38,566 nucleotides of DNA, taken from positions 1 to 38,566 of IMG/VR virus record IMGVR_UViG_3300005613_000184, one strand, 5' to 3'. This stretch comes from a virus. Position numbers and translations under genes: made by a program. Positions 3,138-32,179 of the stretch are shown here, piece after piece (position 1 is the first letter of the stretch; the number at the start of each line of letters is the position of its first letter). A model generated the notes under the pieces. That model worked only from the letters and a program-made list of their open reading frames with translations. It had not been told where the DNA came from and made no database searches.

Positions 3138-3917
3138 ATGGGACTAAATAATAATATATTAGATTTTCACACAGAAGTATCGAAAGGTTTAGTGCCTAAG
3201 CATACTTTAGTTCACAAATTTGGACATAACTTAGATATTGATACAGGTACAGATCCGGAAACAGTGTGGAGCGCCGGCGGCTTATACACTTTCCCTTCTT
3301 CAGCTGACACCTTGAAGATAATAAGCAATGATGTTGACGATAATGGTACAGGTACAACTGGAGCTTTAACGATAAAGGTTCAAGGGCTAGACGCTAATTA
3401 CGATCTTGTAGAAGAAGATTTTACTTTAAATGGTCAAACAGCCGTTACTGGTAGTAAGAATTTTATTAGAGTTTTTAGAGCATTTGTAACTTCTGCTGGA
3501 TCTAGCGAATTAAACGAAGGCACTATAACTATAAATAACTCTGATGATAGCCTAACTCTAGCTGAAATACCAGCAGAACACGGTCAAACACACATGGCTA
3601 TTTACACCATACCTAGAAACCATAAGGCTTATTTAACTTCTTTTTCTGGATCTATGTCTAAAGCAACGCCTTCTACAGCTGTTGTTCTTGAAATGATATT
3701 TAGAAAAGACGGTGTTAAAAGAATAAAGCAGAATGTATCTATTGACACGACTGGCTCTACTAGCTTTATAAAATATTTTAAAATGCCTCTTCCAATTGAG
3801 GAAAAAACAGATGTTTATGTTAACGCTAAAGAAGTGTCACAAAACAATTCGGGTGTATTTTCTAACTTTGCTTTAATACTAGTAGAGCAGAGCGATAAGT
3901 ATACAACCAATGTATAA
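3138..3917 (+). CDS. Beta-rich virion structural protein, 259 aa
   Basis: The sequence has the repetitive beta character of virion proteins: HKFGHNLDIDTG and ETVWSAGGLYTFP near the N-terminus, then LTIKVQGLDANYD, DFTLNGQTAV and FIRVFRAFV, ending in a strand-rich domain with FSNFALILVEQSD. The opening 'KFGHN-DIDTGT-ETVWSAGG' pattern is one I associate with phage structural proteins of unknown position, seen in several marine phages. It lies between the candidate small terminase and the large terminase. Its stop overlaps the terminase start by 8 bases, implying coupled translation. A role as head or tail decoration is inference. Confidence 0.6.
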   Translation: MGLNNNILDFHTEVSKGLVPKHTLVHKFGHNLDIDTGTDPETVWSAGGLYTFPSSADTLKIISNDVDDNGTGTTGALTIKVQGLDANYDLVEEDFTLNGQTAVTGSKNFIRVFRAFVTSAGSSELNEGTITINNSDDSLTLAEIPAEHGQTHMAIYTIPRNHKAYLTSFSGSMSKATPSTAVVLEMIFRKDGVKRIKQNVSIDTTGSTSFIKYFKMPLPIEEKTDVYVNAKEVSQNNSGVFSNFALILVEQSDKYTTNV

Positions 3918-13050: not shown

Positions 13051-14202
13051 ATGCCATTAATAAACGAAAATCAGTTTACATATTATAGTAACTTAGGCGA
13101 AGATTTTGGTTCGTATCAATTTGTTTCAATATCTGAGATAATTGAAGCTTTTATGTTTATATATGTTGGTGAAGATAAGATAATATCTAAAGTTAATAGA
13201 GCTGATGTATTTTTTCATGCTCAAAGAGCTTTACAAGAATTAAGCTTTGATACTTTAAAATCTATAAAGTCTCAAGAAATAATAGTACCAAATACGTTAG
13301 CTATGGTGCTGCCTCAAGATTATGTAAACTATGTTAAGTTAACTTGGAGCGATGATGCCGGTATTGAACACGTCATATATCCTGCTTCTAAAAGTAGCAA
13401 CCCTGTAAACATATCTCAAAATTCAAACGGAACTTACAACTTTGACGTAGACGGTGATGGAGTCAATACTAGCAGTTTAACTACGTCTCACGACTCTGAT
13501 ACTATATCTAGATCTTTTTCTATAACAAATGGATCTAATCAAGTAACATATACTTTAACTGCCGCTGAATCTGCTACAGGAGCTACGCTTGTCGAAGACA
13601 TCGTAGTTGGTATGACGATAAACGGTGCTGGTATACCTCAAGGAACTATAGTAACAGAAGTAAATGGCACTACATTAACTATTGACAACAATGCCACTCA
13701 AACTAACGGTGGTGTGAGTTTAATACTTAAAAACTTTGATAAAAAATCATCAACTTGGAACAACTTTAAAGATCTAGGAGCTGATTCTGGAAACGATGAT
13801 TTTGATTACGACGACGACATTTACGACTATAATCTAGGTCAAAGATTTGGCATTGATCCTCAACACGCTCAAGTTAACGGATCTTTCTACATTGATGAAA
13901 TCGCTGGTAGAATACATTTTGGCTCATCTCTTAGTGGTAAAACAATTATACTAAAATACATAAGCGATGGCTTAGGCACTGAAGAAGAAATGAAAGTACA
14001 TAAGTTTGCAGAAGAAGCTATGTACAAGCATATAGCTTATGCTATTGTTTCTAATAAAGCCAACATGGCTAGATCAACTATTGAAAGACTTAAAAAAGAA
14101 AGAAGAGCCACTACAAGACAAGCTAAGCTTAGACTTTCCAATATTAAGCTAGAAGAAATAACACAAATACTTAGAGGTAAATCTAAACAAATTAAACACT
14201 AA
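13051..14202 (+). CDS. Putative tail-adaptor/connector protein with inserted beta domain, 383 aa
   Basis: Two conserved-looking helical parts flank an insertion. Residues about 20-115 contain FVSISEIIEAFMFIYVGEDK, VFFHAQRALQELSFDTLKSI and PQDYVNYVKLTW, a pattern I associate with head-tail adaptor proteins of marine podoviruses. Residues about 140-226 form a beta-rich block (VVGMTINGAGIPQGTIVTEV, then TTLTIDNNAT) of the type that is often inserted into phage structural proteins. After it the adaptor sequence resumes (FGIDPQHAQVNGSFYIDEI) and ends with basic helices. The stop codon overlaps the start of the giant tail gene by one base. It probably sits between the connector ring and the tail tube or knob. 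Confidence 0.62.
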   Translation: MPLINENQFTYYSNLGEDFGSYQFVSISEIIEAFMFIYVGEDKIISKVNRADVFFHAQRALQELSFDTLKSIKSQEIIVPNTLAMVLPQDYVNYVKLTWSDDAGIEHVIYPASKSSNPVNISQNSNGTYNFDVDGDGVNTSSLTTSHDSDTISRSFSITNGSNQVTYTLTAAESATGATLVEDIVVGMTINGAGIPQGTIVTEVNGTTLTIDNNATQTNGGVSLILKNFDKKSSTWNNFKDLGADSGNDDFDYDDDIYDYNLGQRFGIDPQHAQVNGSFYIDEIAGRIHFGSSLSGKTIILKYISDGLGTEEEMKVHKFAEEAMYKHIAYAIVSNKANMARSTIERLKKERRATTRQAKLRLSNIKLEEITQILRGKSKQIKH

Positions 14203-17200
14203 TGCCTGAATTTAATAGAGTTTTTAGCGAGGGTAAAATGAATAGAGATCTCGATGAGAGACTCGTGCCTCAAGGTCAATATAGAGAAGGTATAAACGTA
14301 GAAGTTATATCTTCTGATAATGGTAATGTTGGTTCTGTAAAAAACAGAAAAGGAAACTTAAAGCTTTCAGGAGCTGATCTAGGAACTAGCGAAGAAGTAA
14401 GTTTATCACCCGAAGCTGTTTGTGTTGATTATTTAATAGCTGAAGAAAATCAAAAAGCTTATTATTTTGTAGAAAATGCAAAAACAGATGATGGGCTTAC
14501 TAATGTTGGTATTATTTCAGACGCTATAATAGAATATGATATAAACGCTACTTCTCCATCTAACTTTAGCGTTGTTTTTACAGACGTAAAAAGTATACGA
14601 ATATCGCCTTTAGCTACTCAAGCAGGATTTTCTATAGATCCTTTAAATAGCAAAGCAGTACAATTCACCGCTAACATTACTGACCAAAGCACTATTGGCA
14701 TACCTGTTGTTTTTAGAAAAGGAATGACTACTTCAGATGGAAATCCAATAGCTGATGTTTCTTTTGTTGGACTGAATATAACTATACTTTTTGGAAATGA
14801 TGTAGACCCTAATATTTTAACAGATCCTCAAGGTATAACTTTTACAAAAGACTCTGTATTAGGCATAGATAGATCTAATAAATATATAGCTTCTAACTAT
14901 ATAGACGATTTATTATTTTTTACAAATGGAGTTGACGAGCCAAAAAAAATAAATATACAATTATCTAAACAAGGTACAAGTGGAGGTGCTATGAAATTTG
15001 CTAATCACACTAGGTTAATTTCTGATTTGTTTATTTCTGGCAATACAGCTGTAGAAGAGCAAAACGTTACTGTTATACGCAAAAATCCTGACACTCCGCT
15101 AGTTGTTAATTTAGGAGAAAGCTTAAATTCTGAAGGAGCTACTTCTGATGTTATTATATCAGCGCTAGACAATTTTTTAGACGATCAAGGACAACCTTGG
15201 CAGTATTTATCTTCCGCTAACGCAGAACCTCCAAGCGTTGGGCAGATATTTAATTTTCAATCTATAGGGCCTAATGGTTTTAAAGTTGGGCAAACATTAG
15301 ATTTTTTAGACACGGAAGATAATTTTCCAAATGAACCGGTGCAGTTTTTAGTAACTGAAGTTTTAAGTAATAGCACTTTTACAGCTTCTTTAGTAACTCA
15401 ACTTCAAACTGCAGATAGCAACCAGCCTAACTTTGTAGACTTTTCTGGAGTTAGCTTTAAGTCTGCTAGTGTATCTTTAGACAAATCTTTACACGAAGAT
15501 AAGTTCGTTAGATTTTCATACAGATGGAAATACAGAGATGGTGAGTATTCTGGTTTTGCGCCTTTTACTGGCGTGTGCTTTTTACCGGGCACTTATGAGT
15601 ACAATAGTGTAGATTCTCAAAATAAAGCTTTAATTAATAGAACTAAACAAATAGTACTAACAGACTTTATGCCGTTTCATACGCCTAAAGATGTTGTAGA
15701 AATAGAACTTCTATTTAAAGAAGAAAATTTATCTACTGTATACAGTGTTAGATCTTTTAAAGTTACAGACGCAGAATCTCAAGAAAATGGAACTGGAAAA
15801 AACAAAGGTGTATACTCTTCAGACGCTGAAACTTTTTCTCAAGCAATAGCTCCTAATCAAATACTAAGACCTTTCGATCAAGTTCCAAGATCTGCAAAAG
15901 CTCAAGAAATATCAGCTAATAGAATTATTTACGGAAATATAAAAGAAAACTATAACCTAACAAGTGGTCAAGATAAAGTCAACGCGGATATATCTACTGG
16001 ATTAACTTCTGAAGCTTTAGAATTGACTTCTGTATTTTTTACTAACAATTATCAAACTTTTGCTCAAGGATTAACCATACAAGACGCGAACTATTATCTA
16101 AGTTTACCGCCTGGTGAAAATGAACTAAATATCTTTCAATCAATTTTGTCTAACACTACTGTTCCAGGTGAAATCGAATATCCTAGCTTTCCTGGCGTAG
16201 ATCCTGTAAATTCTTTTATTAGCGGTACTAACGTACTTTTCGAAGCTGTTTACTTTTCCGACTTAATTCTTGGTGCTAACGAAGCTGGCACGCCTAATAC
16301 CGAGCTTTTTTCTTCTCCAATAAATTTCGCAGATTACATCAACACTTCTATAGAGCAAGCTGTAGAGGTATTTGCCAATGTTCCAATTACCGGAGTTCAA
16401 AAATATTTAAGAGGAGCTTTTGCTAATGGTGATGATGAAGGCGTACCTGTTGTGAACGCAGATAATCCAGATGGAAATTTTAACCATGGATTTGCTAATG
16501 ATCCTGCTAGCGCCGATGGTGTATATCACGTTTCTACTACAGGTTTTTACACTATTTCAGCGCAAGTTGGAGCTAAAGGATTTATTGATAATTCTGTAGC
16601 AGATGGCACTAATGATTTAGGAACTTGGGGAGATGTTTTAGATGATAAGTATAAAGTTTTACCTTTAAGACTTACACTGCAAATATCCACAGATGGTGGT
16701 GCTACATATCAAAACGCGCCTAATAGTGGTAATTTTATTCCTTGGAAAAAAACTAACTATAGTAGTGACTCTGCTGATATTAACTCGCCAGGGTACAACG
16801 ATAGTATTGTTAAATTTTTGTATCACCCAGCATTTCCAGACTACCCAACTGATAAGCCTCCAACTACAACCTTTACTGATTTGTACGGTAATGCTTACGA
16901 CAGCGTCAACTTAGCAGCCACGCCAGGAGATGGCGGTTATTTTGACATAGACTTTTTAAATAGCGCTTTTGAAAATTTACATCCTAAAGCGTTAGATATA
17001 TTGTACAACACTCCTTTTGATTTTCTAGGAGTAAGTACAATTGAAAGCCCTGGAAACGACTTACCAAGTGGTAAGGCTATAAAAATACTAAAACAAACGA
17101 TAGATTTTTGGTGGCAAGGAGAATGGCATGATACTAAAATTGGTCAACCAAATCCAGTGTATAAAGCTAACTACACACTTTTACTAAACGCTGAAGATAA

Positions 17201-20200
17201 GTTTAGATTTGTTATTCAAAGAGATCCTTATTTTGTAGCTCAATTTGGTTCTAATAATTGCAAAATAAAATTAGAAAATTTTAGTTATAATTTTAAATCT
17301 AGTAATTTAAACCTAGCGTCAGAAAGCCTTTGGCCTTGGTTTAATCCTAACTTTATTGGTAATTCAGAGTTTAATTTTATTTCAGTTCCACAATTAGATC
17401 CTGTAAATGAACTTCCAAATGCAGGTACTTCAAGCTTTCATAAATTAATAGCTAATTGGTTTGGAAGAGCTGACACTACTCAATTTTCTGATTTTCCTTC
17501 TACAATCGTGTTTAATAACGAAAATACATTTTACACAAATATCGCCAACGCTAGTTCGTTTGTAGGTGTAAATACAGCTTATCTTGGCAGTGAAGCTTTA
17601 AACTTTTCATCACTAAATCCTAATTGGGATTACGAAACTATTCTTCATAATAATGAATATAATTTAAGTCAACGCGACTTAAATATAGTGATGTTAGAAG
17701 ATGTTGGCCCTTTTAACTTGGTGGCAGGTGATGGTATTTTTTCTCCAAATCTACTTGGATTTCCTGTAGGCACTGGCGGTATATTAGGAGGAAATAACTT
17801 TGAACTTGCTAGAACGCTTGTATTAGGCGGCGATCTTGAAAGTCATTTCTACATTCCAACACCAATAGATCAAAACAACATAAATAATATACCAATACAA
17901 ATACTAAACTTAGACGCGCCTGATACTCAAGTTGGCTTAACTAATCCTAACAACCTAGGAGCCCCATCAATAAAGTCATTTAGAACTTATAAAATAGGAG
18001 TTGTATATAGAGATAAATTTGGAAGAGAAACACCAGTTTTGCCAAGTAAAAATAATATAGTGTTAGACAATGTAGCTTCAGACAGTATAAATAAGCTAAG
18101 TCTAACCTGCAATCATAAAGCGCCTGACTTTGCTGACTCTTATAAGTTTTTTATAAAAGAAACTTCATCTGAATATTATAACTTAGTAATAGATAGGATA
18201 TACGATGGTGGCGAAAACACCGCGTGGATTTCTTTTAATTCTGTAGACAGAAACAAAATAACAGAAGACACTATACTTATATTTAAAAAACAACACGGCA
18301 GCAACTTTATGGCTACTTCTGATGTTTTAGTCAATGACGTTTTAGATGTTTCTAATGTTAACTTAGAATACCCTATTATAGCTATATCTAACGAAGCTCC
18401 TCCAAAAGTTTTAGATCAAGCTGGCGTTACTGCAGATTTTGAAAATTTATCTACAGAAGCAGAAATAGAAAAAGTTCAAGGTAAGTTTTTTGTTAAAGTA
18501 AGAATTGACGAGCCGTTTAAAGCTAATGTTGTAGGATCAGCAACTGGAATTGTTATTACTGCAAGCGAAAAGCCTGGAGTTTTTGAAACAAAACCAATAG
18601 AAAATAAAGATTTAGACATATATTACGAGGCTAGCCAAGCTTTTCCTATAGAGCTAACTAGCGAAAACGTAGATAGGTTTATTCAAGTCGGCGCAACTAT
18701 CACTCCTATATATCAAAGCTCAAATGGATTTGTTTTTGAAGGTAGTACTTCGCATAGTGTTTTAGATGCTGGTTTTGCTGGAAGTTTTTCAATAGCACAA
18801 GTTGTTGGATCTTTTACTAGCGGTAATAGTGTTAATAGTGATTTTTGCGAAATAGTTTTAGATGGTCCTGTTATTGTTGCACCACTAGTTACCGAAAATG
18901 GTCCTCAAGTTTATAACGCTCAAGATAAGTTTTTTTTAAAAATTAAAAATCCAAACAAAACTATTGTAACCTGCGAAATAGGCTTGTTGACAAATACTCT
19001 TTCTAACAAAGTGTATTTAAAAAGATTTACGCATCCAGTCGCGGGTTTTGACGATAAAACTACTATAGTTTTTCCTTGGTTTAATTGTTTTTCTTTTGCT
19101 AACGGTGTTGAATCTAATAGAATACGAGATAGATTTAATCAACCTTTTATATCTAACGGTGTTAAAGCTTCTACTGTGTTTGAAGATTACTCTGAAGAAA
19201 TAAACAAAAGCAAATTAATATTTTCAGGAATATATAACTCTAAGTCTAGCATTAACAAAACGAATCAATTTATAATTGGTGAAGGTATAACTAAAGACTT
19301 AAACCCAGACTACGGTCAAATACAGAGACTTTTAGCTAGAGATACAGATTTAATAACATTTTGCGAAGACAAAGTTCTTAGAATATTATCTAACAAAGAT
19401 GCTTTATTTAACGCTGATGGAAATACTAATGTTGTAGCATCGAAAAACGTACTAGGAACCGCTACTCCATTTGTTGGTGAATATGGTATATCTAATCATC
19501 CAGAGTCTTTAGCTAAGTATGGCTATAGAGTTTATTTTACCGATGTTAAAAGAGGCAAAGTGCTAAGATTATCTATGGACGGTATAACACCTATATCTGA
19601 CTATGGTATGTCAGACTTTTTCTTTGATACGTTTAATCAAGTAAATAAAGATACTAAAGTTATAGGTAGTTATGACAATGCTAGCGGAGAGTATAATCTA
19701 ACTGTTCCGGTTGTGTCTAATACAACTTCTAATAGTTATGGTTACGTTAATTCTAGTGATGACTATATAGCGCCAACTTTTTCAGATGACATTGGAGGCT
19801 ACACTATATCGTTCGACGAAAGTAATAATGGTTGGTCAAGTTTTAGAACTTATGTTAAAGAAGCTGGATTTAGTCTTAACGATAATTATTACACTTTTAA
19901 AAATGGTAGAATTTGGCAACATCAACAAAATCCTTTAAGAAATAATTACTACGGCCAGCAGTTTAACTGCTCTATTAGATTTATATTTAACGACGCGAGC
20001 AATATTGTCAAAAGCTTTAAAACAGTAAACTACGAAGGCACGCAAGCTAAAATATACGAATCTCTTACTAATAACGAGTATTACGATAACGCTGCTAAAG
20101 ATGGTTGGTATGTAGAAAGAATATCTACAGATATTCAAGACGGTCAAGTAATAAACTTTAGAAATAAAGAAAATAAGTGGCACAAATATATTACTGGAGC

Positions 20201-21755
20201 TGCTAACGCTAATTTAGATTTATCAGAACTAAGCGCTCAAGGATTTGGTCTTCCAGCAGGAGCTCAATTAGGCGATGATACTAATGGTAACGGCTTTGGC
20301 GAAGGAAATGGAAATAATGGAAATAACGATGGGCAAGAAGATCCTATAGAAATAATTTTGGGCTGTACAACTCTTGGAGCTTCTAATTACAACATAAACG
20401 CTAATATAGACGATGGTTCATGCGTATTTTTAGGGTGTACTGATTCTAATGCTATTAATTTTAACGAACTTGCTACTGAAGATGACGGAAGTTGTCAATT
20501 TCCAGTTGTATCAGGTTGTACTGATCCTGCAGCTTTCAACTTCAATCCTGACGCTGATGAAGATGACGGTAGTTGTATACCTGTTGTTTTAGGTTGCATT
20601 GATTCTAACGCGCTTAACTTTAATGAAAACGCTAACACTGATGATGGTTCTTGTATTGCAGCTATAGTTGGCTGCACAGATCCTACTGCTTTAAACTACA
20701 ATCCACTTGCTAACGTAGACTCTGGTTGCGTGTTTGAAGTCGTAGGGTGTACAGATCCTTCTGCTGACAACTATAATCCACTTGCTAACGTAGACGAAAA
20801 TAACTGTGAGTATTGTGGTAATTTTGAAGCTGTGCTTATAAGCACTACAAATCCTTCTTCTCCATCAGCTAGTGACGGGCAAGTATTTGCAACAGGTGCT
20901 AATGGTTCAGGCAATTACGATGTGCAAATATTTGACGGTGTTGTTCAAGTAAATCCATTTGCAATGCCTACTGGAACGTTTACCGTTGTTGTAACAGATG
21001 TTCTTCATTTCCCTCTGCCTGGAGGAGGAGATAATTGCATAGACTCTTTTGAAGTTACTTTAGTAGCTGAAGATAATCCTCCTCCTGCAGTTTTCGCTGG
21101 TGACCTTACATATAGCTTTGATTTGTACGTAGATTCTGAAATTTACAACTCTGAGCCTATGATTGAAGGTAATAATAATGAATTTTTTATTAATCCTAAT
21201 GGAGAATCAGTTACTTTTTACGCTAAAATAAATCCTGATTTAGATTCTTTGTTCGATGAAAATGGTTATTTTGTAGGTCCAGCTGAAAATCCAGCAGACT
21301 ACATAAGAGCTATTATTGCTAGAGATACTAATCAAAGCTTTGGCACTGGCGATTTTAGTGTTTCTAACGATTTTCCTTGGATAGTAGATAGCTTCGGCTC
21401 AAGTGTAGGTACGCAAGGTATTACAAATTTAAACTTTAAAATGAAGACAGGATCTTTTTACGGATCTATAAACGAGTTTGATTTTACTGGAAATTTAGCT
21501 GGGACAGAATTATCACAGTACGACTCTTGGGTATCTTGGACTGCGGATATAGGCCCAGATTCTAATCCTCTTTTAGTTAACACCGCTATTGTTAGATTTC
21601 AACATATAGCTTCTGGAGCTTATAGTGGCGCTACCGTGCCTAATCCAAACTCTGCGTGGAATTTAGCTCAAGATCCTTCGTTTAACTCAACTCCATTTTC
21701 AAGAAGTTATTCATCTTTAAAGCAAACGAATTTTATTGGTCCTTTTAGTATATAA
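14202..21755 (+). CDS. Giant tail protein with P22 gp10-type core and host-like C-terminal repeats, 2517 aa
   Basis: Residues 1-50 (FNRVFSEGKMNRDLDERLVP, then REGINVEV and KNRKGN) match the opening of tail-stabilisation proteins of the P22 gp10/T7 gp12 type. A second part of that signature is at about 1770-1806 (KYGYRVYFTDVKRGKVLRLS, then SDYGMSDFFFD). Large beta-rich expansions fill the space between. Residues about 2054-2206 hold six GC-x-DP-type Cys/Asp/Asn repeats, each ending in DDGSC or a variant, which are common in secreted Bacteroidetes proteins. Residues about 2207-2290 resemble a SprB repeat (ASDGQVFATGANGSGNYDV, then PTGTFTVVVTD). The last 220 residues are a further beta domain. 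It probably forms the tail knob, with host-contact domains at its C-terminus. It is more than three times a normal gp10. Confidence 0.8.
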   Translation: MPEFNRVFSEGKMNRDLDERLVPQGQYREGINVEVISSDNGNVGSVKNRKGNLKLSGADLGTSEEVSLSPEAVCVDYLIAEENQKAYYFVENAKTDDGLTNVGIISDAIIEYDINATSPSNFSVVFTDVKSIRISPLATQAGFSIDPLNSKAVQFTANITDQSTIGIPVVFRKGMTTSDGNPIADVSFVGLNITILFGNDVDPNILTDPQGITFTKDSVLGIDRSNKYIASNYIDDLLFFTNGVDEPKKINIQLSKQGTSGGAMKFANHTRLISDLFISGNTAVEEQNVTVIRKNPDTPLVVNLGESLNSEGATSDVIISALDNFLDDQGQPWQYLSSANAEPPSVGQIFNFQSIGPNGFKVGQTLDFLDTEDNFPNEPVQFLVTEVLSNSTFTASLVTQLQTADSNQPNFVDFSGVSFKSASVSLDKSLHEDKFVRFSYRWKYRDGEYSGFAPFTGVCFLPGTYEYNSVDSQNKALINRTKQIVLTDFMPFHTPKDVVEIELLFKEENLSTVYSVRSFKVTDAESQENGTGKNKGVYSSDAETFSQAIAPNQILRPFDQVPRSAKAQEISANRIIYGNIKENYNLTSGQDKVNADISTGLTSEALELTSVFFTNNYQTFAQGLTIQDANYYLSLPPGENELNIFQSILSNTTVPGEIEYPSFPGVDPVNSFISGTNVLFEAVYFSDLILGANEAGTPNTELFSSPINFADYINTSIEQAVEVFANVPITGVQKYLRGAFANGDDEGVPVVNADNPDGNFNHGFANDPASADGVYHVSTTGFYTISAQVGAKGFIDNSVADGTNDLGTWGDVLDDKYKVLPLRLTLQISTDGGATYQNAPNSGNFIPWKKTNYSSDSADINSPGYNDSIVKFLYHPAFPDYPTDKPPTTTFTDLYGNAYDSVNLAATPGDGGYFDIDFLNSAFENLHPKALDILYNTPFDFLGVSTIESPGNDLPSGKAIKILKQTIDFWWQGEWHDTKIGQPNPVYKANYTLLLNAEDKFRFVIQRDPYFVAQFGSNNCKIKLENFSYNFKSSNLNLASESLWPWFNPNFIGNSEFNFISVPQLDPVNELPNAGTSSFHKLIANWFGRADTTQFSDFPSTIVFNNENTFYTNIANASSFVGVNTAYLGSEALNFSSLNPNWDYETILHNNEYNLSQRDLNIVMLEDVGPFNLVAGDGIFSPNLLGFPVGTGGILGGNNFELARTLVLGGDLESHFYIPTPIDQNNINNIPIQILNLDAPDTQVGLTNPNNLGAPSIKSFRTYKIGVVYRDKFGRETPVLPSKNNIVLDNVASDSINKLSLTCNHKAPDFADSYKFFIKETSSEYYNLVIDRIYDGGENTAWISFNSVDRNKITEDTILIFKKQHGSNFMATSDVLVNDVLDVSNVNLEYPIIAISNEAPPKVLDQAGVTADFENLSTEAEIEKVQGKFFVKVRIDEPFKANVVGSATGIVITASEKPGVFETKPIENKDLDIYYEASQAFPIELTSENVDRFIQVGATITPIYQSSNGFVFEGSTSHSVLDAGFAGSFSIAQVVGSFTSGNSVNSDFCEIVLDGPVIVAPLVTENGPQVYNAQDKFFLKIKNPNKTIVTCEIGLLTNTLSNKVYLKRFTHPVAGFDDKTTIVFPWFNCFSFANGVESNRIRDRFNQPFISNGVKASTVFEDYSEEINKSKLIFSGIYNSKSSINKTNQFIIGEGITKDLNPDYGQIQRLLARDTDLITFCEDKVLRILSNKDALFNADGNTNVVASKNVLGTATPFVGEYGISNHPESLAKYGYRVYFTDVKRGKVLRLSMDGITPISDYGMSDFFFDTFNQVNKDTKVIGSYDNASGEYNLTVPVVSNTTSNSYGYVNSSDDYIAPTFSDDIGGYTISFDESNNGWSSFRTYVKEAGFSLNDNYYTFKNGRIWQHQQNPLRNNYYGQQFNCSIRFIFNDASNIVKSFKTVNYEGTQAKIYESLTNNEYYDNAAKDGWYVERISTDIQDGQVINFRNKENKWHKYITGAANANLDLSELSAQGFGLPAGAQLGDDTNGNGFGEGNGNNGNNDGQEDPIEIILGCTTLGASNYNINANIDDGSCVFLGCTDSNAINFNELATEDDGSCQFPVVSGCTDPAAFNFNPDADEDDGSCIPVVLGCIDSNALNFNENANTDDGSCIAAIVGCTDPTALNYNPLANVDSGCVFEVVGCTDPSADNYNPLANVDENNCEYCGNFEAVLISTTNPSSPSASDGQVFATGANGSGNYDVQIFDGVVQVNPFAMPTGTFTVVVTDVLHFPLPGGGDNCIDSFEVTLVAEDNPPPAVFAGDLTYSFDLYVDSEIYNSEPMIEGNNNEFFINPNGESVTFYAKINPDLDSLFDENGYFVGPAENPADYIRAIIARDTNQSFGTGDFSVSNDFPWIVDSFGSSVGTQGITNLNFKMKTGSFYGSINEFDFTGNLAGTELSQYDSWVSWTADIGPDSNPLLVNTAIVRFQHIASGAYSGATVPNPNSAWNLAQDPSFNSTPFSRSYSSLKQTNFIGPFSI
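20361..20820 (+). repeat. Six GCTDP/DDGSC protein repeats inside the tail gene
   Basis: Six degenerate units of about 24-26 residues start at each GC and end near C. Typical units are GCTDPAAFNFNPDADEDDGS-C and GCTDPTALNYNPLANVDSG-C. The last two units share identical DNA for their NPLANVD part, suggesting recent duplication. Each unit carries two cysteines and an Asp/Asn-rich loop, so disulphide bonds and calcium binding are plausible. This unit type is widespread in secreted flavobacterial proteins. Confidence 0.85.
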
Positions 21756-22889: not shown

Positions 22890-24167
22890 ATGGCAGATCA
22901 AAATTTAATAAACTCAGCTAGAAGAATGTATCAAGCAAAGGCTCAAGCTTCTCAAAAGCTAGCGCCTTTTGTTGTATCTAAAGTTTTTGGAGGTTTTGAA
23001 AAAATAATAAAAGACGCTGATCTTAAGTTTGAGCAAAACATAGAAAAATACGGCATTGACACAGGTGATATTACACCTCAAATCGCTGCTAGTATGGGCG
23101 AAAAAGGATCTGAACTTATAGATAATCAGTTTAATGATATACAAGAACTATCAAAGCCATTTCTTGGAAAAAAGAAAAAAGCAGAGCTATTAAGTAAAGT
23201 TAATCAAAGACAGGTTAACTTAGCTACTATAAAAAAAGAGCAAGAAATTTACGACGCTAAAGTTAAAAAGATTGTAGCTAAAAAAGGTGCTATGAGCGCG
23301 TACAATAACGCTATCACAAAAGCTTCTTACGCAGAATTTTCAGATCCAAGCAGTGATTGGAACAAAAACATGTTTGTTAATCTAGAGGCTACAGAAGACA
23401 TGCCTGTAGGTATCTATACTAAAGTAGGCGATAAAAACGTAAACATAAACGATTTACAAGAACCAATAGAAGTAGCTATAAAAGAACAAGCTAAAATGGC
23501 CAAGCTTTTAAAGCAAGTTGAAACTTACAAAAAGAATTTAAAGCCAGGCGATACTTGGGAAGGCAGCTCTTTTAGAAACAATATAATGGCAGAAATAAAC
23601 GCTGTTGTATCTACACCTCAAATAGCAGGTTCTTTAGCTTACGATGGTTTCCCGGGCGATAGAGATAATGGCGTTAGCTTTTTGACCGCTATGGCGAAAG
23701 AATATAAAGTTGATTTTGAAAATATAGAAGATATAGACCTTATGTATGAGCAGTTTAAAGATGGTGATATAACATCGTCTTATAGAAGTTGGGCTATGAG
23801 ATTAGCTGATAATGTTTTTGCTAAAACACAAACTAGACCTACTAAGCCCAAAAGCGGTGGCGGTGATGACGATAAAAAAGATTTATCTTACGTTGTAGAA
23901 GCTTTAAATAATAGAAAGATTTTTCAAGACCCAACAAACTCTTATATAAATTATCATTATAGTAGTAGTAAAGGAAAATATTACCCAATGACTACTGGAG
24001 GTAAACAAATATTAGACGATAAAAATAAGGCAATATACTATAATTTATCAGATTTTAACTCATTAATACCAGGGTTAAACTACCAAGCTACAAATAAAGT
24101 TTCTAGAATACCTAGCACAGCTTCCTTCCCAGGTTCACCAACATTTAACGTTCAAGAATTACCTTAA
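22890..24167 (+). CDS. Putative internal virion/ejection protein, 425 aa
   Basis: Soluble, lysine-rich and mainly helical in residues 1-225 (LINSARRMYQAKAQASQKLA at the N-terminus, KKEQEIYDAKVKKIVAKKGA near 115-135). A less regular region at about 305-330 contains a TRPTKPKSGGGDDDKKD linker. The tail holds Tyr- and Ser-rich segments. It occupies the middle place in a three-gene ejection block, comparable to T7 gp15, and is separated from the giant gene by only 11 bases. No enzymatic motif seen. It may line the periplasmic channel or bind DNA inside the capsid. Confidence 0.55.
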   Translation: MADQNLINSARRMYQAKAQASQKLAPFVVSKVFGGFEKIIKDADLKFEQNIEKYGIDTGDITPQIAASMGEKGSELIDNQFNDIQELSKPFLGKKKKAELLSKVNQRQVNLATIKKEQEIYDAKVKKIVAKKGAMSAYNNAITKASYAEFSDPSSDWNKNMFVNLEATEDMPVGIYTKVGDKNVNINDLQEPIEVAIKEQAKMAKLLKQVETYKKNLKPGDTWEGSSFRNNIMAEINAVVSTPQIAGSLAYDGFPGDRDNGVSFLTAMAKEYKVDFENIEDIDLMYEQFKDGDITSSYRSWAMRLADNVFAKTQTRPTKPKSGGGDDDKKDLSYVVEALNNRKIFQDPTNSYINYHYSSSKGKYYPMTTGGKQILDDKNKAIYYNLSDFNSLIPGLNYQATNKVSRIPSTASFPGSPTFNVQELP

Positions 24168-24178
24168 TTATATAAACT

Positions 24179-27100
24179 ATGTTTGAATACAAAGGCGTTA
24201 CATTTTCTCAAGAAGATGTTGAAAATAGAGCTAAAGAGAAAGGCTTATCTTTAGAAGATTATTTACTTCAAAATAAAGATATAAACCGTGTTGAAGTGGA
24301 AAAGCCAACGACTCCAAAGGCAATGAGTGCGGCTGCGGAGTCAAGAAATGCTGCACTCGATACGGGATCGCCATCGGTTCCTACTTTTTCGGAGTTACTA
24401 GATCAAGCAAAAGATGCTTCTAAAAAATACGACAACACTCGCCACGAGTGGATGTTGGATAAAAACAACAAAGGCGAAGTAGTTGATTATTCTTTCTTCA
24501 ACAAGTCTGAAGAAGACGCTGAGGTAGCGTTATCTCAAGCCTACCCTGGTTTTAAATTTGAGCAAGCTGGAAATTTATTTGACGGAGAAAAATACTTTAA
24601 TATGATTAAAGTAGTAGCCCCTGATGGTAAAAAGTCTGAAGCTATTGAGTTTAGAGTTTATGATGCTGCAAAGCCAGAAGACGCAGCTAGAAGACGTAAA
24701 GAATCTTTTGAGCAATTAACATTGTTTATAAACGAAAACTCCGGCGATAAAGAAAAACAAGATCAAGACGCTAAAACTCAACAGGACATAGATAAATACA
24801 TCGACTATAGTAGAACTGTAGAAAATGGTATAGATAAAGACGCTATTACAAAGCAATACTCTGGTGATATTTTTGCCCCTAAAACAACTGTTCAATATGT
24901 TCCTACTAGCAAAATAGGTAGTAGAGTTCAAAAGCTAGAAAAAGTAGAGCAACCTTATATTAAAGAGTTGCAGTTGGCCGCTAAAGAACTAGGTTCTAAC
25001 GCACCTAAGTTTGCTATAGAAGCGAAAGCTAGGGAAATTTTAATAAATAATACTATAGCATCTGAAAGAGACAGAATATCTGAAGAGTTATTTGAAGATA
25101 GTGAAGAGTATAGATTATTATTAGAAAAAGGTGGCAAAGAGTTTGCTCAAAAATACGGATCTAAAATAGAGCTGCAAACTAGCTTAATAAATGACTTCGA
25201 AAACGGTGATGATATTAAAAAGCTTAAAGAAATAGATGGTAAGCTTTCTAATACTAAATACCAATTTGAAATAAAAGAAGGTGAAGAGACTATTACTATT
25301 GAAGATGGTAGAGTTATTCCAGCTAACGTGTTAGACGAATATAATAAAGCTAGTGCAAGTCTTAACGCTAAAGTATCTCATATAAACTCTCTTCAAGATG
25401 AAATTAACTCTAACATAGATATAATATCTTCTACAGATCAGCAGCTAGATTTACTTAAAAGAAATTACAATGGTATTCAAAAGTTTTTTGTTACTACCGG
25501 TGTAGGAACTGCACAGCTGCTAGACGGCGCTTCTTATGGTCTAAAAGCTTTTACTGGAGCTAATAGCTTAGAAGACGATAAAAAGTTTATAGAAAGACAA
25601 AATAGATACCAAGAAATAAGACAAGAGTTTGAAAAAGACGTTCAGTTTGACGATGCTTTTAACTCTGTAGAAAACTTTTTTACATTCGCGGCTCAAGAAA
25701 CGGCTAATCAGCTGCCTATATTTGCCGCTTTAACAACGCCTGTTGGTTTTGGTATTATTGGCGCTAGTGGATTTGGTGAGCAATATTCTAAAATGACAAG
25801 CGAACAACTTGATCCGTTTGTTAGAGCCGAATACAGTGAGATGGATAAAAAATTATCTAGTATAGGCTACGCTGGAGCAGAAGTTGTTTTTGGAGCTTTA
25901 CCAACTGCTAGATTAGTTAGAGGCGCTACAAAGTCTTTAACTAAAACGGCAGCTAGAAACGAACTATACAAAAATCAATTTAAAGATTTTTATAAAACAA
26001 AAAAGCTAGAAGGTATTGTAGGTGCTGGCGGTGAAAGTTTAGGTGAAGGATTAACTATTGTAACTCAAAATATAATTAATGGTATTGATCTTTTTGAAAA
26101 CGTAGATCATGCTATGTTTTCTGGGGCTTTATTTGGCACTGGCTTTGCTAGCGTACCTTTAATTAAAGGCGCTATAGTTCAAAAGTTTTCAGACTTTGAT
26201 ACGTACCAGTCTGTAATGGATAAAAAGAAGCAACAAAAAGAGTTGCATGCTTTAAACAACAGAATAGAAGATCAACTTCAAAGAGGTATAGTTTCCATAG
26301 GTACTAGAGATGATATTGAAAGAAACGAAAATCTTATAAACGAGTTAGAAGAAGATATAATATCAGAAATAAACGAAGTAGAAACTAAAATAACAAAAAC
26401 ATATAACGGTGTCGCTAGAGAGTTTGTTGAAGCCGTAAGTTTGCAGCAAGATCTACGAGTTGAGTATGATAGAATAAAAAATAGCGACTTAGAAGCTAGT
26501 GCTAAAGAGCAGTCGTTAAAGTTAATAGAAGTACAGTTTAACTCTCTGCAAAGCGGAATAAATAAATTCAAAAAGTCTAAAACTTTTGACAACGCCTGGG
26601 CTTTATACAGCGGCAAGAGAAAAAATAAAGACGAGGTAAAAAGAATAAAAGATCAAGCAGAAGAAGAGTTAAAAGCTACGGGCAAGCAATATAGCGATAC
26701 TCAAATAGATGATAAAGCTAGACTTATATATAATACTGAACAGATAAAAAAAGATATATCTAAGTCTAAGTCTAAATATAACAAGCTTAACAAAAGTTTA
26801 AAAGACTTTGAAACAAAAGAGCAAGCTGTTGAGTATATAAATGAAGTATACGATAATAGAATAAAAGCAGAGCCAAATAGAGAAACTGAGCTAAACAACA
26901 ATAGAAATAGCGATATACAAGCTATACAAGAAGGATCTCATGGTTTTAACATTCAAACAGTAGATGGTAGAAAATCTGTAGTCGTAATTGATAGCATGGC
27001 TGCTGATGACAGATTAGAGACTAGAACTCACGAGTTAAAGCATCAAGTCTTTACTAATATATTAGGAAATAATCCAGAAGTTTACAATGATCTAGCAGAG

Positions 27101-30100
27101 CAAGTATTAGCTTGGACTAATAAGTATGCTAAAGATTCATTTGACAGAATAACTGCTTTTGCAGAAAGAGATGCTCAAGGTAACTTAATATCGTATGAAG
27201 TTATGGCTGTCTTTTTTGAAGAAGTAGCAGCTAACAAAATAAATCTAAACAAAGCGAATAGGTTTTCTGGCGTGCTAGGTTATTTGATAGGTAAAGGTGC
27301 TAATGATGTTGGCCTAGAAATTGATTTGGCTGGCGAAGAAGACGCTATAAAGTTTTTAACTGGCGTTGCGCAGAAAATAAAGCAAGGAACTTTAACAGTT
27401 GCTGATGTTTCTAAAATAAAGAAAAACGTATTAATATCAGAAGTAACTAACATAGTAAGAGGCGATAAAACAGCTTTGTCTAGAGCTGCTTCTGAAAAAG
27501 TTCAAGAAATATACGAACAGCAAGGAGACTCTGGTATGTTTGAAATATTTGAGCAATTTAAACCTATAACAACTCGTATTGCTAGAAGGTTTAGAGACGT
27601 GCCTGGCTACGACGAACAGCTTATTATAGATGAAATAGAAACAGGTGAAAGAGGCATTTTAGATCTTATCAGAGCTTATAAGCCTGATTCTGGCGTGCCT
27701 TTAGCTGCTTATATAAACAAGTTTCTTCCAGCTAGATCTATTGAAGCTGGTAATAGAATACTAAAAACAGAGTTTGAAGACGACGTAACAGAGGCTAAAG
27801 GTGTGGTAGCTGATGAAGCTCCGGCCGTAGAAGTTGAAGAAAGAAAAACAAAAGCAAAAGTAATAGCTGACGAACTAAATATAGCTGATAAGGTTGCTTT
27901 AGAAGTGTCAAAAGCTGGTTTAGATGTAACTAAACTAAAAAACTTTAAAAGCGTCCCTAACGCTGCTATAAATACAGTAGGCGAAATGCTAGGTGTATCT
28001 CCAACTAAGATAAAAACAAAAGCAAACTTAACAGCTGACGAAGTAGCTTCCGCGCAAAGATGGTTTAACAAAAATAAACAGCTAGTAATAGATGCTCTTC
28101 CACAGGGCTTTGATGTTGAAGGCGAAGCAACTGGAGTACCAAGAACTGTTCTAGCAGCTTTGTATACTCAAAGAGAAACTAGAGCTAAAACTAAAGCTGG
28201 CTTGAAAGGTCAAGTAAAAAGAACAAATATAAAAGACTCTGAGTTTTTAGAGTTAATAGATATTATTGATGGTAAGCCAACTCGTAACAGAAATACGTCG
28301 GCTAGAATTATAGCGCTTGCAGATTTACTTGGTAAAACAATTACTAATCAAGAGATAAGAAGAACAACTCCAGGTGTTGAAAGAATACGAAGCGGTATGT
28401 CTGAGACTATGTTTAGTCAATCTTTCAACGTTAGACCTGAGTTTAGAATAGACTTATCTGCTATAAAAAATGAAAGAAGAGCAGTAAACAAACTATTAAG
28501 TCTTCATAATCTTGATAGAACGTTTGAAGTTAAATCTACAAAAGATATTGAGCCTTTTATACAAAATGTAGTTTTACCTTTATTTAAGCTAGGTCTAAAA
28601 GAAATGTTTGTTGGGCCAGATGGAGGCACTGTGTTTACTAGTAGCGCTAAAAATTTAGGTCTTAGCGCTAGTAGTGAAACTCAAGGGCCTATATGGAGAG
28701 CTTTTGTAAATAGAGTTAAAGAAGTTGCAGAAACAGCTGAGTTTGGGCAAAATATACCAGGTGTTAATAATAGCGAAATATGGGAGCTTAGAAACAAATA
28801 CAACACATTGTTTGGTACACCAGCAAAAGCTAAAAAAGCTATTGAAGATGGTAGAGTTAAAGATTTTAACAATAAGGTTGGTAAAATACATAAAGAGCTT
28901 TGGGATAGAATATCAAAGTCAATAAAAAACGATAGAAATAATGCTGTTGGTTTAGCTACATATTTAACATTTACAGCTAACGACACTGGTCATTGGCATA
29001 AACTAGGAGCTCAATTTGCTGGTTACTCTAAAAAAATAACAGGCAAAAGGTATGAGTTTGAACATGCTATGCCAGCTACAGCGGCTTATAATTATTTGCT
29101 AGATGCAGCTATCACTGATGCAGACAATAAAACTAATAGTTTTGTAGCTTCTTATGATTTAATTGTAGAAAATTACAAACTAATAGCTCTTGATAAGGCT
29201 ATGGACGATAAGCTTAGAAACGCTAGAACAGCTAGCGGTCTTAGTTTACAAAAAGTAATGCCTGATAATTGGAGCCCTATATTAAACAATTGGTATGAAA
29301 GATACTTTAATAGTATTGTAGCGGTTCAAGATAGAGGTATAAATCCAGCTTCTATAGAAGGTTTAGACGGTAGAACTTTTGACCAAATATACAACGTAAA
29401 CGTAGAAGGCAACTCAATATTCTCAAAGACAGGTATTAAAAAGAACATGATGTTAAGCGAAGCTACATCAAACTCTAGAGCGGTGCTTAATTATACAGGA
29501 AAGTCAAGAGGCATGTCTACTTTTGATTTTGATGAAACGCTGATAATTGATGGCGAAAACTTTATAGTAGCTACTAAAGGAGATGATGTACAAAGAATAT
29601 CATCTGGAGACTGGCCATTACAAGGGCCTAAATTTGCTGCTGATGGCTATGAGTTTGACTTTACAGACTTTGTAAATGTTAGAGGCGGTGTTGATGGTCC
29701 ACTACTTCAGAAGATGCGTAATCAAATTAAAAAATACGGAGTAGACAACGTATTTGTTTTAACTGCTAGACCAGCTGAAGCAGCCACAGCGATACATGAG
29801 TGGCTTAAAACTAAAGGTATAAATATACCGTTTGAAAATATAACTGGTTTAGGCGACAGCAGAGGCGATGCTAAAGCTGAGTGGATGCTAGAAAAATACG
29901 CTGAAGGCTATAATGACATGTATTTTGTAGACGATGCCTTACCTAACGTTGAAGCTGTGCAGCACGTGTTTAATCAACTAGACGTTAAAGGTAAGTCAGT
30001 GCAAGCCAGAACTAACTTTAGTAAAAACTTGAGTAAAGGCTTTAACAAGATGCTTGAAAGAACTAAAAGTGTTGGAGCTGAAAAAGTATTTTCAAGAGTT

Positions 30101-32179
30101 GCCGCTCAAAAGCGTGGTAAAAACGTAGGTAAATACAGATTTTTTGTACCACCATCAGCTGATGATTTTGCTGGCTTATTGTATTATTTTTACGGCAAAG
30201 GTAAGCAAGGTAATGCTGATATGGAGTTTATGAAAAAAGCTTTGTTAGATCCATTTGCTAGAGCAGATCGTGAAATGAGCATGGCTCGCATGACTATATT
30301 AGATGATTACAAAGAGCTTAGAAAGCAGTTTCCAGAAGTTAAGAAAAAACTAGGTAAGTTAATAGACAAAGATAGTGGCTTTACGTTTGACAACGCTGTA
30401 AGAGTTTATTTATTTAATAAAGCTGGCCACGATATTCCTGGTTTATCTAAAAGAGATATTCAGTTCTTAGACAACGTAGTTAAAACAGATCAAGATCTTA
30501 GATCATTTGCAGATTTACTAGGTTTAGTTTCTAAAAGAAAAGAAGGTTACATTAAGCCAACTGATAACTGGAGTGTAGAAAACATCGCTTCAGATATGCA
30601 GAACATCGTGGATAAAATAGGTAGAAAACAGTTTTTAGCGGAGTTTATAGAAAATAAAGATATTATATTTTCGCCAGAAAACATGAACAAAATAGAAGCT
30701 ATCTACGGTAGTCAATTTAGAAAAGCATTAGAAGACGTGTTGTTTCGTATGGAAAATGGCACTAATAGATCTGCAGATAGAAGCTATGGTCAAGCATGGA
30801 CAAACTGGGTTAATGGATCTGTAGGCGCTATTATGTTCTTTAACAGTAGATCTGCCGTATTACAGACTTTATCTACAGTTAACTTTATAAACTTTCAAGA
30901 TAACAATATATTTGCTGCTGGTAAAGCTTTAGCTAACCAAAAACAGTATTGGTCAGATTTTAGTGCGTTATTTAACTCAGACTTTTTAAGAGCTAGAAGA
31001 GCTGGACTTCAAATAAATGTAAATGAAGCTGAGCTTGCTAACGCTGTAGCTGGAGCTCAAAATAAAGCTAAGGCCGCACTAAGATATTTACTTAAAGTAG
31101 GTTTCACACCTACACAAATCGCTGATAGTTTTGCTATTGCTTCTGGTGGTGCTACATTTTATAGAAATAGAATTAACACATACTTAAAGCAAGGCATAAC
31201 TCAAAAAACTGCTGAAGAAAAAGCGTTTTTAGATTTCCAAGAAATAGCTCAAGAAACTCAGCAGTCTTCAAGACCTGATAGAATATCTCAACAGCAAGCT
31301 AGCCCGTTAGGACGTCTTATATTAGCTTTTGCTAATACGCCTTTGCAGTACAACCGTTTAATCAAAAAAGCTGCTTTAGACTTAGCTAATAGACGTGGTG
31401 ATTGGAGGAGTAACGTGTCTAGAATATTATACTATGGAGCTATACAAAATGTTATATTCTCTGCTATGCAGTCTGCTATATTCGCACTAAGTTTTGATGA
31501 TGAAGAAGATGACGAGTTAGATAGAAGAACTTTACGAATAGTTAACGGCATGACTGATACAATACTAAGAGGATCTGGCGTTACTGGAGCTGCTATAGCT
31601 ACTATTAAAAACGTTTTAATGGAGTTTGCTGAGCAGTCTAAAAGAGAATCTAGAGCTGACTACGGACAAGTCGTAGTTGAAGCTTTACAAGTGTCACCTC
31701 CTATGGGGTCAAAAGCTAGAAAACTTTATAGCGCGTTAAACACTTATAAGTTTGACAGAGAAATAATGGCTAGCATGGACACTTTTGATTATAACAATCC
31801 TATTTGGGATGCTATAGGTAATGTAACTTCTGCTGCTACTAATTTACCGCTTGATAGAGGTTTTAGAAAAATAGATAATATACGCGAAGCTTTAAATCAA
31901 GATAACTCAGCGATGCAAAGAGCATTTTTGTTCTTAGGTTGGAGTTCTTGGGATTTACAAGTTGGAGAGCGTGTAGTTATGAATAAAGGTAAAAAAAATG
32001 AATACGTGAAGTATTTAGATACAAAGCGTCAGGCTCAACAAGAAGCTGAAGAGAAATTAAAAAAAGAAAAAAAAGAAACTAGAAAATCTAAGCAATGTAC
32101 AGCTAGATCGCGAAGTACTGGTAGAAGATGTCAGAATACTACAACAAACAAAAGCGGTAGATGCTATGTACATAACTAA
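24179..32179 (+). CDS. Giant polyvalent internal virion protein: zincin, HAD phosphatase, zinc finger, 2666 aa
   Basis: The domains in order are: helical N-terminus (1-480); Gly/Ala-rich hydrophobic region (about 480-670, e.g. FAALTTPVGFGIIGASGFG); coiled coils (670-910); a zinc metallopeptidase-like segment with HELKH at 951-955 and a downstream FFEEVAA whose Glu could be the third ligand; a helical segment recalling sigma-factor region 2 (about 1133-1202); a HAD hydrolase with all four motifs (DFDET 1783-1787, T1862, K1899, DD 1918-1919); a helical region with TQQSSRPDRISQQQASPLG and LILAFANTPLQYNRLIKKAA; and a C-terminal Cys-x10-Cys-x10-Cys-x2-His finger (C2640, C2651, C2662, H2665). It corresponds in position to T7 gp16 and is probably ejected into the host, delivering several enzymes at once. 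The enzyme substrates are unknown. Confidence 0.75.
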   Translation: MFEYKGVTFSQEDVENRAKEKGLSLEDYLLQNKDINRVEVEKPTTPKAMSAAAESRNAALDTGSPSVPTFSELLDQAKDASKKYDNTRHEWMLDKNNKGEVVDYSFFNKSEEDAEVALSQAYPGFKFEQAGNLFDGEKYFNMIKVVAPDGKKSEAIEFRVYDAAKPEDAARRRKESFEQLTLFINENSGDKEKQDQDAKTQQDIDKYIDYSRTVENGIDKDAITKQYSGDIFAPKTTVQYVPTSKIGSRVQKLEKVEQPYIKELQLAAKELGSNAPKFAIEAKAREILINNTIASERDRISEELFEDSEEYRLLLEKGGKEFAQKYGSKIELQTSLINDFENGDDIKKLKEIDGKLSNTKYQFEIKEGEETITIEDGRVIPANVLDEYNKASASLNAKVSHINSLQDEINSNIDIISSTDQQLDLLKRNYNGIQKFFVTTGVGTAQLLDGASYGLKAFTGANSLEDDKKFIERQNRYQEIRQEFEKDVQFDDAFNSVENFFTFAAQETANQLPIFAALTTPVGFGIIGASGFGEQYSKMTSEQLDPFVRAEYSEMDKKLSSIGYAGAEVVFGALPTARLVRGATKSLTKTAARNELYKNQFKDFYKTKKLEGIVGAGGESLGEGLTIVTQNIINGIDLFENVDHAMFSGALFGTGFASVPLIKGAIVQKFSDFDTYQSVMDKKKQQKELHALNNRIEDQLQRGIVSIGTRDDIERNENLINELEEDIISEINEVETKITKTYNGVAREFVEAVSLQQDLRVEYDRIKNSDLEASAKEQSLKLIEVQFNSLQSGINKFKKSKTFDNAWALYSGKRKNKDEVKRIKDQAEEELKATGKQYSDTQIDDKARLIYNTEQIKKDISKSKSKYNKLNKSLKDFETKEQAVEYINEVYDNRIKAEPNRETELNNNRNSDIQAIQEGSHGFNIQTVDGRKSVVVIDSMAADDRLETRTHELKHQVFTNILGNNPEVYNDLAEQVLAWTNKYAKDSFDRITAFAERDAQGNLISYEVMAVFFEEVAANKINLNKANRFSGVLGYLIGKGANDVGLEIDLAGEEDAIKFLTGVAQKIKQGTLTVADVSKIKKNVLISEVTNIVRGDKTALSRAASEKVQEIYEQQGDSGMFEIFEQFKPITTRIARRFRDVPGYDEQLIIDEIETGERGILDLIRAYKPDSGVPLAAYINKFLPARSIEAGNRILKTEFEDDVTEAKGVVADEAPAVEVEERKTKAKVIADELNIADKVALEVSKAGLDVTKLKNFKSVPNAAINTVGEMLGVSPTKIKTKANLTADEVASAQRWFNKNKQLVIDALPQGFDVEGEATGVPRTVLAALYTQRETRAKTKAGLKGQVKRTNIKDSEFLELIDIIDGKPTRNRNTSARIIALADLLGKTITNQEIRRTTPGVERIRSGMSETMFSQSFNVRPEFRIDLSAIKNERRAVNKLLSLHNLDRTFEVKSTKDIEPFIQNVVLPLFKLGLKEMFVGPDGGTVFTSSAKNLGLSASSETQGPIWRAFVNRVKEVAETAEFGQNIPGVNNSEIWELRNKYNTLFGTPAKAKKAIEDGRVKDFNNKVGKIHKELWDRISKSIKNDRNNAVGLATYLTFTANDTGHWHKLGAQFAGYSKKITGKRYEFEHAMPATAAYNYLLDAAITDADNKTNSFVASYDLIVENYKLIALDKAMDDKLRNARTASGLSLQKVMPDNWSPILNNWYERYFNSIVAVQDRGINPASIEGLDGRTFDQIYNVNVEGNSIFSKTGIKKNMMLSEATSNSRAVLNYTGKSRGMSTFDFDETLIIDGENFIVATKGDDVQRISSGDWPLQGPKFAADGYEFDFTDFVNVRGGVDGPLLQKMRNQIKKYGVDNVFVLTARPAEAATAIHEWLKTKGINIPFENITGLGDSRGDAKAEWMLEKYAEGYNDMYFVDDALPNVEAVQHVFNQLDVKGKSVQARTNFSKNLSKGFNKMLERTKSVGAEKVFSRVAAQKRGKNVGKYRFFVPPSADDFAGLLYYFYGKGKQGNADMEFMKKALLDPFARADREMSMARMTILDDYKELRKQFPEVKKKLGKLIDKDSGFTFDNAVRVYLFNKAGHDIPGLSKRDIQFLDNVVKTDQDLRSFADLLGLVSKRKEGYIKPTDNWSVENIASDMQNIVDKIGRKQFLAEFIENKDIIFSPENMNKIEAIYGSQFRKALEDVLFRMENGTNRSADRSYGQAWTNWVNGSVGAIMFFNSRSAVLQTLSTVNFINFQDNNIFAAGKALANQKQYWSDFSALFNSDFLRARRAGLQINVNEAELANAVAGAQNKAKAALRYLLKVGFTPTQIADSFAIASGGATFYRNRINTYLKQGITQKTAEEKAFLDFQEIAQETQQSSRPDRISQQQASPLGRLILAFANTPLQYNRLIKKAALDLANRRGDWRSNVSRILYYGAIQNVIFSAMQSAIFALSFDDEEDDELDRRTLRIVNGMTDTILRGSGVTGAAIATIKNVLMEFAEQSKRESRADYGQVVVEALQVSPPMGSKARKLYSALNTYKFDREIMASMDTFDYNNPIWDAIGNVTSAATNLPLDRGFRKIDNIREALNQDNSAMQRAFLFLGWSSWDLQVGERVVMNKGKKNEYVKYLDTKRQAQQEAEEKLKKEKKETRKSKQCTARSRSTGRRCQNTTTNKSGRCYVHN

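Follow-up and report, generated by a model that had tools for sequence, protein, structure and literature searches.

A giant modular protein closing the virion gene cluster of a marine Bacteroidetes-type phage: zincin, HAD phosphatase and sigma-2-like domains in a proposed polyvalent-type ejection protein

Polyvalent proteins are known from phages and conjugative elements (Iyer et al. 2017, PMC5512222). The commonest domain among them is a zincin, in which an HExxH motif and a further glutamate are arranged on a three-stranded sheet, an HExxH helix and a second, Glu-bearing helix (PMC5512222). Two podovirus systems link large virion proteins to transcription: the virion RNA polymerase of phage N4, gp50, acts at the entry site, and T7 gp16 reportedly recruits the polymerase of the host (both PMC12633501). 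The parts of the PhiCrAss001 account considered here describe cargo proteins that are packaged in head and tail and are proposed to be ejected, bringing transcription proteins with them (PMC10172136). Polyvalent injected proteins are already known; the zincin, HAD and sigma-2-like tool set of the well over a hundred related viruses described below is undescribed in the literature searched.

The window, by which we mean the whole stretch of DNA analysed, is a linear virus sequence of 38,566 bp, probably a genome fragment, from a virus of marine Bacteroidetes-type bacteria. P0001 (24179..32179, +) is an open reading frame of 2666 aa with an ATG start and no internal stops. This giant gene is the last of a terminase-portal-capsid-muzzle late cluster. 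Upstream lie genes for GroES, the terminase large subunit (3910-6129, +; PHROG 6681, E 6e-172), the portal (6122-8530, +; PHROG 6547, E 6e-156), capsid-type proteins and a muzzle-like tail protein of 2517 aa (14202..21755, +; crAss_MUZ_C, PF25729, E 2.8e-6; PHROG 14478, E 2.5e-113). Since the equivalent muzzle-like proteins measure 1493 aa in Flavobacterium phage elemoF and 1612 aa in phi18:3, the one encoded here holds large insertions. A 425-aa protein (22890..24167, +), without a match in the phage collection, has by position the place of a second ejection or cargo protein. The closest relative of the terminase belongs to an uncultured Manatee Spring podovirus (64%), followed by that of Flavobacterium Elemovirus (45%) and then those of Maribacter phage Panino and Cellulophaga phages phi19:3, phi18:3 and phi38:1. 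Late-gene order is common to this virus, Elemovirus, Panino and the Cellulophaga phages, with the giant gene final in each. The phage lies nearer Elemovirus, Pachyviridae and Pervagoviridae than T7 and has a muzzle of the crAss type.

A Pfam search with the full-length protein found no family at E<=1, so its domains are invisible to routine annotation; whole-protein searches of Pfam and PHROGs yielded nothing useful. Scans of viral contigs and genomes gathered 149 relatives that are non-redundant and whose 5' end is intact, a virus family of well over a hundred members that is mostly marine and has no function annotated. All 149 carry a family-defining C-terminal core (residues 1945-2480; 30011..31618, +; about 64% mean column identity over 13 sequences), the profile of which found no credible relatives in the PDB; the isolates examined here are all without this core. 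HAD (129 of 149), zincin (125), membrane-like (75) and sigma-like (61) modules are less constant. Among the 139 complete non-redundant relatives, HExxH occurs in 135, HAD in 119, and the sigma-like domain and a terminal finger in 54 each, and only 19 combine the zincin, sigma, HAD and membrane-like domains. Because these counts vary, the protein singled out by the original prediction is one combination from a modular set, in which HAD, sigma-2, finger, kinase, ART-like insert and glucosaminidase are variably present around the constant core. The glucosaminidase lies inside the giant ORF of one relative (L078:1382-12025; PF01832, E 4.5e-15).

We propose, with a probability of roughly two in three, that P0001 is a polyvalent-type virion ejection protein carrying a membrane domain and effector modules. 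The proposal builds on computed domain identities, conservation, modularity and virion-cluster position, from which we infer ejection, auto-processing, RNA polymerase docking and end healing.

The zincin metallopeptidase domain spans residues 905-1077 (26891..27409, +) and is modelled by AlphaFold with a mean pLDDT of about 90. It contains HELKH at residues 951-955 (27029..27043, +). Over 60 relatives, with a mean column identity of 16%, no column is invariant other than G922, H951, E952, H955 and E1007, a pattern that bears out the HExxH metallopeptidase domain first proposed. The downstream ligand suggested at the same time, in FFEEVAA, did not hold up: the invariant glutamate is E1007 (27197..27199, +; ISYEVMAVFFEEVAA), the predicted third zinc ligand, invariant in sets of 60 and 64 sequences, and not the FFEE pair at 1014/1015. 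By a composition estimate only, 0.007 HExxH motifs are expected in this protein and 1.6 in total over the complete relatives, of which 132 have exactly one. In the model, the HExxH motif lies on helix 945-962 and E1007 on helix 1005-1017, preceded by a beta pair, all at a pLDDT of about 90; the sheet has two main strands, a third being not clearly visible. Structure prediction thus supported the two ligand-bearing helices of the fold, and a Foldseek search with the zincin model returned no metallopeptidase among its matches, which we attribute to the sigma-like part probably having dominated a two-domain query. PDB sequence matches are weak, and zincins of single relatives match the peptidase models M78 (10 of 64), ATLF, M4 and M90.

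Most likely, the zincin would cleave its own polypeptide and so free the other modules. A serious if unlikely alternative is that it acts as an effector on a protein of the host, for example by cleaving a repressor, an immune sensor or an RNA polymerase subunit. Known Peptidase_M78 (ImmA/IrrE-like) members cleave regulators, and the ten relatives with M78 matches resemble this group. An effector role is also named as an alternative for polyvalent zincins (PMC5512222). A constant zincin with changing cargo, however, fits self-processing better.

The original prediction also pointed to a sigma-region-2-like stretch, and this was upheld. About residues 1104-1196 (27488..27766, +) form a helical domain resembling sigma-70 region 2. 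A sigma factor is the top PDB match of one profile of the domain (A4; E 8.8e-4), and sigma factors make up 8 of the 10 matches of another (A6). When the segment was aligned by hhalign to 28 genuine region-2 sequences, taken from PF04542 loci and seeded by an Escherichia coli RpoD segment, it scored E 1.4e-6 at probability 90, versus E 0.025-0.47 for three segments from elsewhere in these proteins. Foldseek matched the model to the SigE N-terminal domain (prob 0.93, TM 0.66 by target, 2.9 A over 80 columns) and to phage sigma factors. PF04542 matches the giant ORF of a relative's record (L087, E 5.5e-4) and was not reached by the window segment alone. Judged by these profile and model comparisons, the region-2 fold is real in this segment. 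Of the sigma-70 positions, Y430, L427 and the aromatic residue at 419 are kept; Q406/E407, which contact the core enzyme, and W433/W434, which act in promoter melting, are not conserved and are largely replaced. We therefore call the domain sigma-2-like and not a sigma factor, and its binding to RNA polymerase may be lost or altered. The most likely role would nevertheless be docking on host RNA polymerase, and the protein may affect that enzyme or host defences.

A separate sigma factor of about 250 aa (L220-L227; 'FLPLVENIARKF...DLIQEG...RIKGAIRR') is encoded in 14 of 20 related records of near full length, which makes use of host RNA polymerase probable in the related phages. These sigma factors match the sigma-like profile weakly. 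A search of the 20 records for T7-type RNA polymerase gave no match, but its control was also silent, so the search is uninformative. Within open-licence papers, no precedent was found for a sigma-2 domain in a virion protein.

The HAD phosphatase domain (residues 1765-1945; 29471..30013, +) has the complete motif set that had been read from the sequence: D1783/D1785/T1787 (DFDETL), T1862 (VLTARP), K1899 and D1918/D1919 (FVDD), all invariant in 61 sequences. The features of the superfamily, namely DxDx[TV], motifs II-IV and a Rossmann-like fold, are present. Structure prediction agrees: the AlphaFold model (pLDDT 84) matches HAD phosphatases in Foldseek, led by class C acid phosphatase and HAD proteins of Legionella (prob 0.94-0.99, at modest E-values of about 0.01-0.04). 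A PDB profile search with the domain found no credible relatives. PHROG 415, polynucleotide kinase, is matched by the window domain (E 0.0019) and by that of L077 (E 9e-5). In 18 relatives a P-loop kinase of about 210 aa is placed directly after HAD motif I, giving a nested kinase-phosphatase; carriers include L011 (residues 2710-2920), L034, L048, L052, L054, L055, L060, L165 and L171. The inserted kinase matches AAA_33/Zeta_toxin and PHROG polynucleotide kinase (PHROG 505, E 3e-11 in L165). The HAD of the window protein is without the insert; 3'-phosphatases of the T4 Pnkp type pair a HAD with a neighbouring 5'-kinase. Two relatives (L077, L090) have at the same site an insert of about 110 aa instead of the kinase, with weak Alt-like/ART-PolyVal matches in L090.

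The kinase inserted in the HAD of 18 relatives suggests PNKP-like end healing. Because of the inserts and the PHROG 415 match, we tentatively favour nucleic-acid end healing as the chemistry of the domain, at a little under even odds, with acid phosphatase activity or nucleotide signalling as possible alternatives. In the favoured case the HAD would most likely strip phosphates from nucleic-acid ends.

These modules might alternatively be assembly tools and not effectors, in which case the zincin would act on a precursor inside the head, either ahead of packaging or while it proceeds, and the remaining folds would be worn-out scaffolding that is inactive in the host. Such a role would have a parallel in the zincin-bearing DdrB of phage P1, which is cut before packaging (PMC5512222), and would suit both the partial retention of functional residues in the sigma-like domain and the fact that the C-terminal core is the sole part found in all members. 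Against it, the catalytic residues of HAD and zincin are invariant across highly diverged sequences, so their activity is under selection, and free swapping of modules fits effectors better than assembly factors. We judge the assembly explanation improbable and retain that of an ejected protein with effector modules.

Three further regions accompany these domains. The predicted C-terminal Cys/His finger proved to be a Cys3His finger (residues 2640-2665; 32096..32173, +) formed by C2640, C2651, C2662 and H2665, and its three cysteines are the only ones in the protein. It is DUF5763-like: the score of this Pfam family (PF19067) is reached only in relatives (L004, E 1.6e-6), the window protein having the pattern alone. 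Our best guess is that the finger would bind nucleic acid. Residues 1250-1376 (27926..28304, +) form an uncharacterised domain conserved in 60 relatives (LPeG..G.aTGv, FY), for which a profile search of the PDB gave nothing convincing. A candidate sigma region 4 in its HTH-looking segment 1255-1290 was dropped, the family consensus being LPeG..TGv and no sigma being matched. A helical domain with an EHAMPA motif (residues 1500-1764; 28676..29470, +) is conserved in 81 of the 149 relatives and has a pLDDT of about 90 across most of its length; it is without a named match, and this 'FEHAMPA' domain is possibly an enzyme or an HNH-like relic.

Nearer the N-terminus, residues 440-680 (25496..26218, +; alignment A10) make up a Gly-rich hydrophobic domain that, from its sequence, probably inserts into a membrane; it includes a hydrophobic stretch at 511-533. 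Its profile matches proteins of cultured phages, scoring 98 bits in elemoF, 94 in phi38:1 gp101, 80 in phi18:3 gp123 and 73 in Panino, against 16 bits for the top decoy among 314 reversed or locally shuffled sequences. A PDB profile search with the domain found no credible relatives, T7 ejection proteins included. The Cellulophaga phage phi18:3 gp123, a syntenic final gene, is annotated as 'structural protein, experimental MS/MS proteomics'; it has only the membrane-like domain in common with P0001 and is without zincin, HAD, sigma and core. The elemoF structural protein also matches the zincin, at 39.5 bits against 4.6 for the top decoy, and is without the other modules. This sharing of the membrane-like domain, together with the elemoF zincin, speaks for a virion entry protein in which the cargo part differs by lineage.

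Two other giant final genes (L218:741-12320, MW202828; L219:8229-13718, PP540027) carry the deposited names 'reticulocyte binding/rhoptry protein' and 'tRNA methyltransferase', which seem mistaken: two HEFGH zincin motifs occur in one of the proteins and the membrane-like ejection domain in the other.

By analogy, through gene position and the MS/MS-annotated syntenic relative, a virion ejection protein with effector modules is a well supported description, and the same evidence points to delivery into the host with the DNA. That the protein is a T7 gp16-type machine for passing cell wall and membrane, its extra folds serving channel building only, is very improbable: the final place in the virion cluster, a membrane-like domain common to virion proteins and the glucosaminidase of L078 would fit, but the window protein is without a transglycosylase or a PDB sequence match to T7 ejection proteins, and the HAD and zincin catalytic sites have no evident role in a channel.

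According to our proposal of an ejected effector carrier, the protein would be packaged in the particle and exit by way of the muzzle-type tail, its N-terminus probably leading. The hydrophobic domain would help to build or anchor an inner-membrane channel, and the C-terminal two thirds would bring the effector modules to the cytoplasm. A more elaborate version, which we regard as distinctly unlikely, has the membrane-anchored protein use its sigma-2-like domain to keep host RNA polymerase at the site of entry, starting transcription-driven genome uptake before phage gene expression, while the HAD, with the kinase in relatives, mends nucleic-acid ends cut by host defences.

New beside the 2017 polyvalent survey are the sigma-2-like domain and the HAD, with its inserted P-loop kinase in 18 relatives. 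If the proposal holds, phage proteins injected at entry gain two functions, a sigma-2-like domain and a phosphatase of the end-healing type, which may or may not be joined to a kinase, and there would be a direct route to asking how host transcription is seized at the first moment by podoviruses for which no virion RNA polymerase is known. The cultured relatives named here (Elemovirus and the Cellulophaga phages) offer parts for testing.

Like the polyvalent proteins of that survey (PMC5512222), P0001 is a very long chain of the late cluster with unrelated enzymatic domains and a zincin hub, and its relatives swap modules that include kinase, ART-like and muramidase-type domains. It differs in its recurrent HAD and sigma-2-like domains, the words 'phosphatase', 'polynucleotide kinase' and 'sigma' being absent from the survey; LPD domains, common but optional in polyvalent proteins, have no Pfam match in the window protein or in the wholly scanned relatives. 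The elemoF protein QMP85251, phi18:3 gp123 and phi38:1 gp101 share the final virion-cluster position and the membrane-like domain, and QMP85251 additionally the zincin, whereas all three are without HAD, sigma-2-like domain and C-terminal core. The PhiCrAss001 genes for gp45 and gp46-gp50 likewise follow the muzzle gene; this cargo consists of separate proteins, including a multisubunit RNA polymerase, and the parts of the account considered describe no zincin/HAD/sigma fusion (PMC10172136). T7 gp16 is, like P0001, a large ejection protein encoded by the last internal virion gene, but it has an N-terminal lytic transglycosylase, whereas Pfam finds none here and there is no PDB sequence match; the gp16-like placement of the original prediction therefore stands as a virion ejection or cargo position, shared with the MS/MS-annotated syntenic relative, and not as descent from gp16. 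N4 gp50 (PMC12633501) is the closest functional parallel: it too is giant and ejected, its N-terminal part is linked to the membrane, and it combines a transcription module with an HExxH domain; it carries a whole polymerase where P0001 has a sigma-2-like segment only, plus HAD and finger. The most fitting label for P0001 is that of a polyvalent-type ejection protein, comparable to N4 gp50 and not a T7 gp16 homologue.
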